Positions 1 to 39,233 of a stretch of 64,000 nucleotides of DNA are shown here, piece after piece (position 1 is the first letter of the stretch; every line of letters begins with the position of its first letter). The DNA is from Gloeobacterales cyanobacterium ES-bin-313. Lineage in GTDB: Bacteria; Cyanobacteriota; Cyanobacteriia; Gloeobacterales; Gloeobacteraceae. Location of the stretch: the NCBI GenBank assembly GCA_014379585.1, contig JACMLN010000099.1, forward strand, positions 1 to 64,000. Direction: 5' to 3'. The translations under genes and the position numbers were made by a program. The notes below the pieces were generated by a model. That model did no database searches. It saw nothing but the letters and a program-made list of their open reading frames with translations, and was not told where the DNA came from.

Positions 1-260
1 CGCAACCCAGCAACACCAAGTATCAAGCCACTAAAGTTGCCAAGGGGGTGTGGGGGACAGGCTTCTGTCCCCCACGGGGTGGGAGTCCAGAGGGAGGGGC
101 TTGCCCCTTCCCTTTGGTGCCGTTCGCCATATTTATCGCAACTCACCAAAATAATGCGTGGTTTGGTTGGTATTCCAATGGCCTGATGGTGGGCGCAGCA
201 TGCTGCGCCCCTACACAACTTGATGATTTAATCGCTCAACTTAAAGGCAAAACGGTATTA
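1..260 (+). repeat. Composite interspersed repeat, copy 1
   Basis: This stretch recurs almost exactly, inverted, at 15334-15600, and in part at 38133-38367 and 38998-39145. It contains a perfect 9-bp hairpin (52-60 with 65-73, loop GCTT), a second C-rich hairpin near 94-113, a perfect 20-bp palindrome at 191-210, and the terminal motif AAACGGTATTA at 250-260. The left edge may lie outside the window. An open frame through it (48-278) is not a credible gene, because the same peptide appears wherever the repeat does. Confidence 0.85.
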
Positions 261-283
261 CCTGTTGTCTTCAAATAAGCAGC

Positions 284-14868: not shown

Positions 14869-15333
14869 GTGAGTAACGTAGCCTTCAATCGCAGATTATT
14901 GAGTAAGACGTTTATCCAGGTGGCAGGTCTAATAACTTTTGGCTTCTCTGGAAAAGCCTACGCCCAGGAAGACGAAAAAAGTAACTTCAATAATACTCCT
15001 ACTGGTATTTGGAGACTTAGCCTAGAAGGCTTTAAGTGGAGGTTGACTCTTTCTGAGGCAGGCGGGAAGGTAGCAGGCTCGATGATGCCAGACTTGATGA
15101 AAGTTGACCCAGAGGGCATTAGCGCACCTGTAATCGAGGGATCTTTTGCAAAAGGAAGCATTGTCCGCTTAGTAGTTGATGGAGGTCATGTGTTCCCAAA
15201 TCTTTCTGAAGCCGAAAAAGCTCTTTTTAGAAGCGAGTACGTCGGGGTTCTTAAAGGAAATACCATGAAAGGTGAAACCCCGTTAGTTCAGAATAATATT
15301 CTGCGAATCGTGCCTTGGGGGGCTGTTCGTATC
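14869..15333 (+). CDS. Small secreted protein of unknown function, 3' end at a repeat
   Basis: GTG start with the ribosome binding site TTGGAGA 6 bases upstream. The 155-residue product begins with a signal peptide (about 1-33, ending KAYA before QEDEK). The mature part, TGIWRLSLEGFKWRLTLSEAGGKVAGSM, reads like one small beta-rich domain. I do not recognise the family. Base composition looks more AT-rich than in neighbours. The stop codon TAA (15334-15336) lies exactly in the terminal motif of the inverted repeat that follows, so the C-terminus may have been cut short by the repeat. Confidence 0.7.
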
Positions 15334-15775
15334 TAATACCGTTTCACCTTTTAATTGAGTGGTTTGATCGCAAGATATGTAAGGGCAAACCTTGTTACGT
15401 CTTTCCCTCAGATCATGTGGGTGCGGGCTAAAGAACGCATTATTTTTATTTTGGTGGGTTGCGAAAAATATGGCGAACGGCACCAAAGGGAAGGGGCGAG
15501 CCCCTCCCTCTGGACTCCCACCCCGTGGGGGACAGAAGCCTGTCCCCCACACCCCCTTGGCAACTTTAGTGGCTTGATACTTGGTGTTGCTGGGTTGCGC
15601 AGTCCTCTTCCCACGTTGCGGGCGGGTGCGCCACCACCCAAATCTGTGGACTGGTGGCACGGTAGGTATGACGCTGCGCGTCCCAGACTCATGGCGCTAC
15701 GCGTGGTTGAGCGGAATTGGAGACGGGTTGGGAGAGGTCTGAGTGCCGATGGGAGGCACATTGGGTTTGGATGCC
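15334..15775 (-). repeat. Composite interspersed repeat, copy 2 (inverted), with extension
   Basis: The complement of 15334-15600 matches 1-260 in order: shared left part, 9-bp hairpin (15527-15535 with 15540-15548), C-rich hairpin, AT-rich linker, and the end motif AAACGGTATTA. Beyond 15600, the segment about 15640-15772 matches 38133-38225, which shows that the element can extend on the other side of its left part. The open frames crossing it in both directions are repeat-encoded noise. The whole gap between the secreted gene and the 317-residue gene is repeat. Confidence 0.85.
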
Positions 15776-15783
15776 TCAGTTAC

Positions 15784-16737
15784 TTATTTCGATGACGAAT
15801 CAGTATGAGATCCGAAAGTCAATTTGCAAAACATTGTATAATCCTGGCTTGCTTCTAACCCTTGTGGCACGCTATTCTCCGTCACGCCTTGTATCTGCGG
15901 CTCCAATTGAGGGGTAATCACTGCGACTGGTGCAGAGAAATACTGAAGTGGCAGCTTTTTTGTCGCTTCTTCGGCAACACGAGGAAGATATATCTTAGGA
16001 ACAAGACGGCTCGGTGAAAAGCTGATCAATAAAGTATGCTCTGTACGAGCTATATAAAATTTATGAATTCGCTTATCTTCTACTTCAAAGCATTCTGGCT
16101 GGATAGCGAGTTGAGCAGTAAGCGCTTCCGTCATCTGCCATCTATCCGTGGCCATAGCAACAACTGCGGGCTTATATTTGCGAATAGCCTCGGCAATCCG
16201 CTTGGCGTTGTGTGCGTCGAAAACGTGTTCGTAGGTCTCCCGATCGTCTAAGAAATCGTGTTCTGTCAGATCATGAAACATCCACTCGGAAGCATCCTTT
16301 GCGTAGATGTTGCTCCACTCAAGGCTGAATCCCTCAGGCGTTTCGAGGCGTTGTAGAAAATGTCTGTATCGAGATGCATATCCATCTGGTTCCCCTGGGC
16401 GAGTCGGTAGCATGGCTCTGAGTCTGGCGTTGAGTTGGCCAAAGTGCCAGTACCGACCAGCGCGCTTATCGATGGGATGACCAGGAAAAACCCCGTTTGT
16501 TGATCCTGGTAGCCATGTTGACAGCATTTCTGCGATGCGCCAAAGCCGGACTTCTGGTGTCGAAGCGGGACCCACCACATCATTCGTAGACCATCGGGTG
16601 TCGATCTCTTGGCCAAGTACCCAGTAGGGATGACTTGGATTGCCGGTGCCGAGGTGTTGATACAGCATGTAGTCGATCACCCAAGGGGCAATCAGGGAGC
16701 CTTCGACGTAGTCCTGTGCTTCTTTACTGAAGTGCAT
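15784..16737 (-). CDS. Conserved-looking protein of unknown function
   Basis: A soluble 317-residue protein with no signal peptide. Patterned segments include PYWVLGQEIDTRW, a predicted alpha/beta core with KPAVVAMATDRWQMTEAL, and a basic stretch ISFSPSRLVPKIYLPRVAEEATK. The last segment vaguely recalls the C-terminal motif of uracil-DNA-glycosylase-fold proteins, but this is speculation. The C-terminal 50 residues are low-complexity. It is the last of three minus-strand genes that overlap end to start (159, 84 and 317 residues), so they are probably co-expressed. I do not recognise the family. Confidence 0.65.
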   Translation of the reverse strand: MHFSKEAQDYVEGSLIAPWVIDYMLYQHLGTGNPSHPYWVLGQEIDTRWSTNDVVGPASTPEVRLWRIAEMLSTWLPGSTNGVFPGHPIDKRAGRYWHFGQLNARLRAMLPTRPGEPDGYASRYRHFLQRLETPEGFSLEWSNIYAKDASEWMFHDLTEHDFLDDRETYEHVFDAHNAKRIAEAIRKYKPAVVAMATDRWQMTEALTAQLAIQPECFEVEDKRIHKFYIARTEHTLLISFSPSRLVPKIYLPRVAEEATKKLPLQYFSAPVAVITPQLEPQIQGVTENSVPQGLEASQDYTMFCKLTFGSHTDSSSK

Positions 16738-19194: not shown

Positions 19195-19552
19195 ATCTTC
19201 TTCGCTTAGCACACCCACAGACAATCAACCCACCGCAGTCGGGGCACAAGGTTCGCCCACCCCCCGCTTTTAGCAGGGTTTGGGATGTGCATCAAACCAC
19301 CTTGGCGATCATTGCTTCTCAACGGCAGTTGCCAAGAATCGTGGATCAATAGCGACGATTTTTGGGAAGAAGGTGTGTATCGAGAAGAGACTACTCCGGT
19401 AGATCATTTCAAGATTGCCAATCGTCGGATCTAAGGGAAGGGCACAGCATAGTTGACCCCTACGTACCTTGTGATTCAATTGCTTGGTTTAAAGGCGAAA
19501 CGGTATAAGAACACATAGTGAAATTGATTGCGATAAATGCCACAGGTAATGC
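19195..19552. other. Intergenic region with a possible gene remnant and a solo repeat end
   Basis: No complete gene is evident. A 49-codon frame at 19285-19434 (+), containing INSDDFWEEGVYREE and VDHFKIANRRI, has protein-like composition and could be a remnant. I cannot name a family and do not call it a gene. The region also holds a solo copy of the repeat terminus at 19457-19507. Confidence 0.5.
19457..19507 (+). repeat. Solo terminal segment of the composite repeat
   Basis: About 50 bases matching the right end of copy 1 (roughly 208-258). Shared blocks in order are CCCTAC, CTTG, GATT, AAT.GCT and AAAGGCGAAACGGTATA. The stem-loop part of the element is absent, so the terminus can occur alone. 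Confidence 0.65.
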
Positions 19553-38058: not shown

Positions 38059-38132
38059 TCCCGAGCTATCCAACGATTAGTAATCTGCGACTGCAAAGAT
38101 CTCGTACCGATTCGTCACCACAATGAGCACCC

Positions 38133-38367
38133 GAGATATCGAAACCCAATGCACCGCCCATCGGCAAACCAAACCTCCTCAAATCCGTCTCCAATTCCGC
38201 CTCACCACGCGTAGCGCCCGATGCAATTCTTAGTATCAAGCCATAAAAGTTGCCGAGGGGGTTTGGGGGACAGGCAGTCTGTCCCCCAATCGGGGAGGGA
38301 GTCCAGAGGGAGGGGCTTGCCCCATCCCTTTGGTGCCGTTCGCCATATTTTTCACAACCCACCAAAA
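38133..38367 (+). repeat. Composite interspersed repeat, copy 3
   Basis: The left part (38133-38225) matches the complement of 15640-15772. The core, from AGTATCAAGCC at 38232 to CCCACCAAAA at 38367, matches 19-151. The hairpin arms (38265-38273 and 38279-38287) are unchanged, but the loop is GCAGT instead of GCTT. The right part of the element, with AAACGGTATTA, is missing, and a gene fragment begins directly at the junction. Confidence 0.82.
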
Positions 38368-38581
38368 ATGCCAAAGCAGCACTCGGGGGCAGTCCTGTGA
38401 TCGTGTAAGACTGGATAGATTGGCCGTTTTGACTGATGGCGACCATATTGCAGGTGGTCGTCGGATCCATGGATTGGACTGGCGATGCTGTAGATGCCTG
38501 ACGACCACCACTTTCTTGCATGTTGAAGGAACGGCTGGAGGCCGCAATGGATCCGGCAAGGGCTACTGAAGGGCTACTGAT
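38368..38581 (-). pseudogene. Remnant of a small secreted protein gene cut by the repeat
   Basis: The minus-strand frame from 38581 reads a hydrophobic piece like the end of a signal peptide (SVALAGSIAASS) and then a protein-like stretch with DPTTTCNMVAISQNG and IQSYTITGLPPSAALAFL. It then runs straight into repeat-encoded sequence at 38367. There is no good start codon before an in-frame stop at 38582-38584, so both ends look damaged. An ATG at 38521 would allow a shorter product, but I consider it a broken gene. Confidence 0.5.
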
Positions 38582-38997: not shown

Positions 38998-39145
38998 AAA
39001 AACCCATTGGCAGACCAGCCAATCCGCTTCCAATTCCGCATCACCACGCGTAGCGCCCGATGCAATTCCAAGTATCAAGCCGTAAAAGTTCGCCGTGCAG
39101 GGGTGCGGGGAACGGGCGCGTCCGTCCCCCAAGGGGTAGGGGTTT
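38998..39145 (+). repeat. Diverged interspersed repeat, copy 4
   Basis: Shares with copy 3 the order CAATTCCGC.TCACCACGCGTAGCGCCC-like left part, AAGTATCAAGCC, and the main hairpin. Hairpin arms are 39107-39115 and 39122-39130. One A-T pair of copy 1 is replaced by G-C and another pair is broken (A opposite C). The part beyond the hairpin is shortened. Confidence 0.75.
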
Positions 39146-39233
39146 CAGGAGTACATGCAGCATCTTCAGCCTTCACCGGATGTTGGTAAAGAAGAGAAAC
39201 ACACAGTCCTAGGCCAAGCACATTCCAGCGCAT
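39075..39233 (-). pseudogene. Signal peptide fragment fused to repeat sequence
   Basis: A 52-codon minus-strand frame starting at ATG 39233. The first 22 residues, MRWNVLGLGLCVSLLYQHP then VKA, form a convincing signal peptide. A short DAACTPETP follows and the rest is encoded by the repeat. This looks like the 5' end of a small secreted-protein gene truncated by the repeat. It might still be expressed as a short exported peptide. Confidence 0.45.

Follow-up and report, generated by a model that had tools for sequence, protein, structure and literature searches.

The closest described counterparts of the repeat analysed here come from Streptococcus pneumoniae and from cyanobacteria. RUP is a 107-bp element of S. 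pneumoniae whose terminal inverted repeats (TIRs) resemble those of IS630-Spn1 (PMC3049150). Our repeat shares with RUP a short, non-autonomous build, TIRs that match an IS630 element of the same genome, enrichment between convergent genes and the presence of stem-loops; compared by description, RUP is simple, whereas the repeat is modular, measures 365 to more than 480 bp and has a core that also occurs without TIRs. The pneumococcal boxA-boxB-boxC elements (BOX; PMC3049150) are likewise composite, with conserved ends, a variable, optional or repeated middle, stem-loops and a convergent bias. BOX differs, again by description, in sequence and host, and the repeat has its own optional middle (a module B and an AT-rich palindromic array) and ends of the IS630 type.

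Among cyanobacteria, the ISNpu3-like Nezha (PMC3049150) and the 147 MITEs of Anabaena sp. 90 (PMC3542288) are, in the excerpts of these accounts, similarly small, TIR-bearing intergenic repeats. The same excerpts link Nezha to an insertion sequence of its host, as is also the case here, and present the Anabaena MITEs, unlike our repeat, without a matching IS TIR; within those excerpts a composite hairpin core with covariation is not described for either. The Synechocystis element ISY100, of the IS630 family, targets TA for insertion and duplicates it, and its single transposase suffices in vitro (PMC2170065). The TA target and imperfect inverted repeats (about 24 bp) of ISY100 and the IS630/Tc1-mariner group recur in the repeat, and an ISY100-type element is a plausible model for its mobiliser; ISY100 is autonomous, whereas the repeat carries no transposase gene. 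Finally, GTAG-tagged REPs and their RAYTs (PMC3733652) offer a parallel in palindromic structure, high copy number and location at gene 3' ends, and one hairpin in the right arm of the repeat is GTAG-like. Here, in contrast, a RAYT is absent, the core hairpins are untagged and the ends are of the IS630 type.

The family appears to be undescribed, composite MITE/BOX/RUP-like repeats being a known kind. We consider it probable that it is a high-copy, modular, non-autonomous repeat, the complete form of which is an IS630/Tc1-mariner-type MITE that is moved in trans and survives mainly at gene 3' ends.

Copies in the window and in the genome

All five copies that a first-pass annotation had proposed are present in the window, the 64,000-nucleotide stretch of DNA analysed here. 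The features are as follows.

1..261, + strand: copy 1, a long-form element cut by the contig edge, with the end of module B, the hairpin core and a complete right arm (E 4.6e-134 to itself; many genomic relatives)
50..75, + strand: hairpin 1 of copy 1, GTGTGGGGGACAGG ... CTGTCCCCCAC
87..117, + strand: hairpin 2 of copy 1, CCAGAGGGAGGGG ... CCCCTTCCCTTTGG; in other copies its pairs show compensatory variants
191..214, + strand: right-arm hairpin GGGCGCAGCATGCTGCGCCCCTAC of copy 1; its - strand reading starts GTAG
233..260, + strand: right TIR of copy 1 (233-255), flanking TA (256-257) and target TNA (258-260)
15333..15808, - strand: copy 2, a complete long-form element; left TIR 15781-15803, right TIR 15339-15361
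15804-15805 and 15337-15338: flanking TA of copy 2
15334..15336, + strand: TAA, the stop codon of the adjacent ORF (14869-15336), forming the T-N-A of the copy 2 insertion target
19420..19508, + strand: copy 5, a solo right arm with right TIR
38102..38370, + strand: copy 3, a short-form element with left TIR and hairpin core but without the right arm, stopping after CACCAAAA
38263..38289, + strand: hairpin 1 of copy 3, loop GCAGT
39003..39150, + strand: copy 4, a truncated short-form element with a partial left arm and hairpin 1 only
39107..39130, + strand: hairpin 1 of copy 4, with a G-C pair of its subfamily and one private broken pair

Profile alignment places copy 1 at 1-261, close to the 1-260 first given, but base 1 coincides with the edge of contig C106 and is not a biological end: contigs C74, C78, C159, C184, C185 and C190 likewise start or end within the repeat, as happens when an assembly breaks at repeats, and what looks like the start of copy 1 is only where the assembly stops. 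Copy 2 is inverted, as annotated, but extends beyond the earlier limit of 15775 to 15808, and it is the only complete copy within the window. Copy 3 was correctly recognised, although it begins not at 38133 but at an intact left inverted repeat (38102-38104), and it ends at 38370 instead of 38367. Copy 4 and the solo right end are both genuine, with the boundaries listed above replacing 38998-39145 and 19457-19507, respectively.

A genome search with copy 1 returned 155 candidates, and 40 scored copies had E-values from 4.6e-134 to 1e-50, a similarity far beyond chance. A covariance model of the two-hairpin core identified at least 97 copies in the assembly (198 contigs, 96%-complete), while profile alignment covered 75 matches in a first set and then about 40 (41) further copies. 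The copies are dispersed, and in many long contigs they have unique flanks on both sides. No element DNA was found in the 38 relatives searched, blastn of the element against plasmids and phages gave no match, and searches of other genomes and of viral contigs for the exact core pattern were negative. Rfam gave no match at the gathering threshold in the window, nor at E 0.1 in five loci.

Complete copies come in three builds, with lengths of about 365, about 475 and more than 480 bp. The short build (about 365 bp) consists of a left arm A, the core C and a right arm D; the long build (about 475 bp) adds module B, of ~100 bp, and the longest has a palindromic array of AATTCAAA-type units between A and B. 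As in BOX, the ends are conserved and the middle modules are optional or repeated, and module B is partly duplicated in the copy on contig C22. The AATTCAAA arrays vary in length within a subset of copies (C14:1-421, L064, C54:6702-7185, C105 and C38) and are as short as AATTCAAAATTTTGAATT in C38. Long copies of this genome also contain a near direct repeat pair, GTTTTCGCCAT / GTTCGCCAT. Many copies lack D and stop just past CACCAA, and most of those found through the core alone are missing both outer ends and have variable left boundaries. Modules are thus freely combined among copies, in keeping with the earlier idea of recombining short repeats. TIRs do not bound all copies, many lacking one or both, so only the complete subset is filed as a MITE.

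Terminal inverted repeats and a matching IS630 end

The aligned left and right ends of the repeat form an imperfect inverted repeat, TNATACCGATTCGTCATCGNAATGAGTG / TNATACCGTTTCGCCTTTAAATTGAGCG, of about 27-28 bp that starts with CCG beside TA (41 left and 29 right ends). The left end reads T-N-A-[TA]-CCGATTCGTCATCG... and the right end ...GAAACGG-[TA]-T-N-A, with TA adjoining 36 of the 41 left ends and 20 of the 29 right ends. The stretch AAACGGTATTA, previously called an end, is made up of the right inverted repeat, the TA and a target base preference. The outer TNA is conserved, and in several copies it doubles as the stop codon of the adjacent gene. Its middle base is unequal on the two sides of most complete copies, which does not suit TNA as the target duplication, a reading therefore rejected, and fits a duplication of TA only, lying within a palindromic preference TNA-TA-TNA. 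No empty sites were found among the DNA examined, so the duplication of TA is something that we only infer.

The genome contains two IS630-type transposase genes, on contigs C121 and C102. The C121 transposase belongs to the IS630 family (NCBIfam NF033545, E 6.6e-40), and directly behind its gene lies TAATACCCTTTCGTTATAATAATGAGCG, a 28-bp end that matches the TIRs of the repeat, agreeing with each of the two ends at about 20/28 positions (counted by hand). In a masked background of 594,500 windows none equalled its score, and a weight-matrix scan of 267,756 positions returned only the C121 site besides the ends of the copies in the window. The contig stops within the C121 element, and a single IS end is assembled; a search for its N-terminal half and its other end found neither. 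Given the match of about 20/28, this insertion sequence may be a cousin of the actual donor. IS630 relatives of the C121 transposase, found in Microcoleus and other cyanobacteria, are bounded by TNA[TA]CCAATT.../...AATTGG[TA]TNA, and distant cyanobacterial IS630 elements show the same T-N-A-[TA]-CC outer arrangement as the repeat.

Other candidate partners were rejected. The ends of the second IS630 differ from those of the repeat, and the other transposases found through DDE_Tnp_1 have no matching ends. A 1.17-kb pair of right ends on contig C144, considered as an insertion sequence, encloses an ordinary gene without a transposase. The C102 element itself has its IS630-family transposase in two ORFs and the ends CGAAATACCT / AGGTATTTCG.

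No transposase gene lies inside the element, the ORFs that cross copies being without Pfam or PHROGs match. The suggestion of a non-autonomous element was sound in that IS630-type inverted repeats make the complete copies MITE-like, and these copies are most likely moved by a borrowed IS630 enzyme. In the mechanism that we propose, an IS630-family transposase would act in trans on the TIRs of the complete form and insert it at a TA within the TNA-TA-TNA preference. The body would be a palindromic core of two hairpins that stay paired as their sequence changes, and module exchange, deletion and inversion would leave copies with and without inverted-repeat arms side by side. Surviving insertions would then be those mainly at gene 3' ends, and above all between convergent gene pairs.

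Pairing and possible age of the hairpin core

The first-pass annotation was right that copies 1-3 pair without a mismatch throughout the hairpin stem GGGGGACAG/CTGTCCCCC and that their loops read GCTT or GCAGT. For copy 4 (GGGGAACGG/CCGTCCCCC), both the change of an A-T pair to G-C and the one broken pair were correctly read, but the G-C change is common to a subfamily (GGGGGACGGGCGCGTCCGTCCCCC, loop GCGCGT; for example C155, C179 and C46), and the broken pair is the only change private to this copy.

Pairing analysis of the cores demonstrates that the structure-preserving change is real and systematic. In 24 distinct cores, 99% of cells were paired and 8 of 24 pairs had changed on both sides; 0 of 500 shuffles reached the observed paired percentage, number of double-changed cells or covariation score, and sliding the pair partners abolished the covariation signal. 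These 24 came from an earlier set of 29 distinct cores and excluded two in which hairpin 1 is broken, so the count was redone on all 58 distinct cores, in which 95.7% of cells were paired, again with 8 compensatory pairs distributed over both hairpins. At position 54/68 of hairpin 2, for instance, A-T, C-G and T-A variants are found. Further genomic copies and retained base pairing, the two points on which the annotation had staked its reading, were both found. In one copy (C35:46714) the loop of hairpin 1 is inverted. Since hairpin inversions are expected from DNA-level hairpin processing, compensatory change need not imply selection on RNA, and either selection or template switching within hairpins may have kept the pairing.

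The core model gave weak matches in 2 of 115 other cyanobacterial genomes. One of these two genomes, from another cyanobacterial family (G058), holds about 40 copies with an equal order of parts: GCGTAGCGC, hairpin 1, GGGGTTGGAGG, hairpin 2 and GGCTCGGAAACCAAAAG. The layout is like that of our repeat and the stem sequences differ; the linkers are nearly invariant and the stems vary. The G058 copies (L183 on C52, L225-L249) are flanked by near direct repeats, GGTTCGGAAAC / GGCTCGGAAAC, and no IS630-type ends were seen in this family by eye. In copy L249, hairpin 2 stands in reverse-complement orientation (alignment row 15), which is evidence of hairpin flipping at the DNA level. The copies without TIRs, together with the look-alike in G058, imply that the core may predate its IS630 wrapping, in which case IS630 may not account for the spread of the core.

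It is therefore possible, if doubtful, that the hairpin core is a mobile repeat in its own right, REP-like and moving through single-stranded hairpin DNA or by another route, with the IS630 arms captured later by a MITE. Such an origin would suit the copies found by the core alone, most of which end near CACCAA and have neither TIR, the similarly laid out places in G058 with their other stem sequences, and the two inverted hairpin parts, the hairpin 1 loop in this genome and hairpin 2 in G058; pairwise identity is also higher in the core (0.83-0.94) than in the arms (0.60-0.83). However, no mobiliser for the core was found, the two Y1 transposases of the genome being of the IS200 type and unflanked by the core. 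The variable left boundaries of core-only copies are as decayed MITEs would show, and deletion of an arm up to the next gene accounts equally for the short right ends.

Position at gene 3' ends

By a crude ORF-based gene call, the intergenic regions with copies comprise 26 convergent, 23 tandem and 1 divergent, compared with 3, 12 and 9 among window intergenic regions without repeats. In the first set, gene 3' ends occupied 68 of 95 flanking sides, as opposed to 18 of 48 in repeat-free window intergenic regions, and the median distance from repeat to gene was 22.5 bp; held-out copies showed the same 3'-end bias (46 of 66 sides). Orientation relative to genes gave only a weak, suggestive bias (p 0.07 overall), and no U-tract follows the core hairpins. 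Convergent excess is also known for the pneumococcal BOX, RUP, SPRITE and IS elements, and was read by the authors as tolerance (PMC3049150).

This location raises a second alternative, that a formerly mobile repeat is now a functional RNA element of 3' ends (a terminator, an insulator or an mRNA-stabilising hairpin pair) under selection. In cyanobacteria Rho is missing and the majority of transcript ends lack an explanation (PMC13289151), the copies lie close to gene 3' ends, both hairpins evolve by compensatory change, the hairpins stay while the arms are lost, and a similar layout exists in another family. We nevertheless judge this explanation unlikely: harmless insertions pile up in the same places, as the pneumococcal elements illustrate, the core hairpins are without the U-tract and the orientation bias is weak, and hairpin-directed template switching can make compensatory pairs without selection. 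A combined version, in which the core would be an ancient 3'-end element with a structure kept across families, acting at converging transcript ends and captured and spread by an IS630 MITE, is more speculative still and we hold it to be improbable.

The RAYT that the first-pass annotation suggested looking for is absent, and mobilisation as a REP/REPIN by such an enzyme is very improbable. The hairpins are intergenic, and the one in the right arm begins with GTAG on the - strand, as in GTAG-tagged REPs (PMC3733652), but the core hairpins carry neither a GTAG nor a CGTC tag at their base, complete copies have IS630-type TIRs and the 96%-complete assembly contains no RAYT. Its two Y1 proteins are ordinary IS200 types, scoring 133.6 and 136 bits with the IS200 model (cut-off 55) and 23.9 and 22.6 bits with the REP_Tyr_transpos (RAYT) model (cut-off 80), and the repeat was not found beside either gene. 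The regions of these two genes (L133, L134) are 87-94% alike over about 1.4 kb. The right-arm hairpin (191-214) reads GTAGGGGCGCAGCATGCTGCGCCC on the - strand, resembling GTAG-tagged REPs, and a similar GTAG-like hairpin stands ahead of the left arm in some copies without TIRs (C51:21794, C74:8730).

A structured coding sequence or an assembly artefact is hardly credible: ORFs of 106-150 aa do cross the repeats and contigs do break within them, but a small protein was rejected on the frame-shifting indels of 1-2 bases in loops and junctions and on the absence of any family match (Pfam, PHROGs), and copies that, in many long contigs, are bordered on either side by unique DNA speak against an artefact. 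In the window such ORFs run through 38066-38521 and 15283-15795, again with no family match, and they are likely to be wrongly annotated as hypothetical proteins.

As a probable IS630-type MITE, the repeat offers a clear case of a cyanobacterial short repeat that can be traced to a likely mobiliser, and its hairpin body is maintained by compensatory change across about a hundred copies. It sits at many gene 3' ends, and the transcript ends of this group are poorly accounted for. If the repeats do not shape transcript ends, they would be a good example of neutral accumulation combined with hairpin-driven sequence repair; if the core is instead an ancient 3'-end element spread by an IS630 MITE, a transposon would be distributing transcript-end signals in bacteria without Rho.
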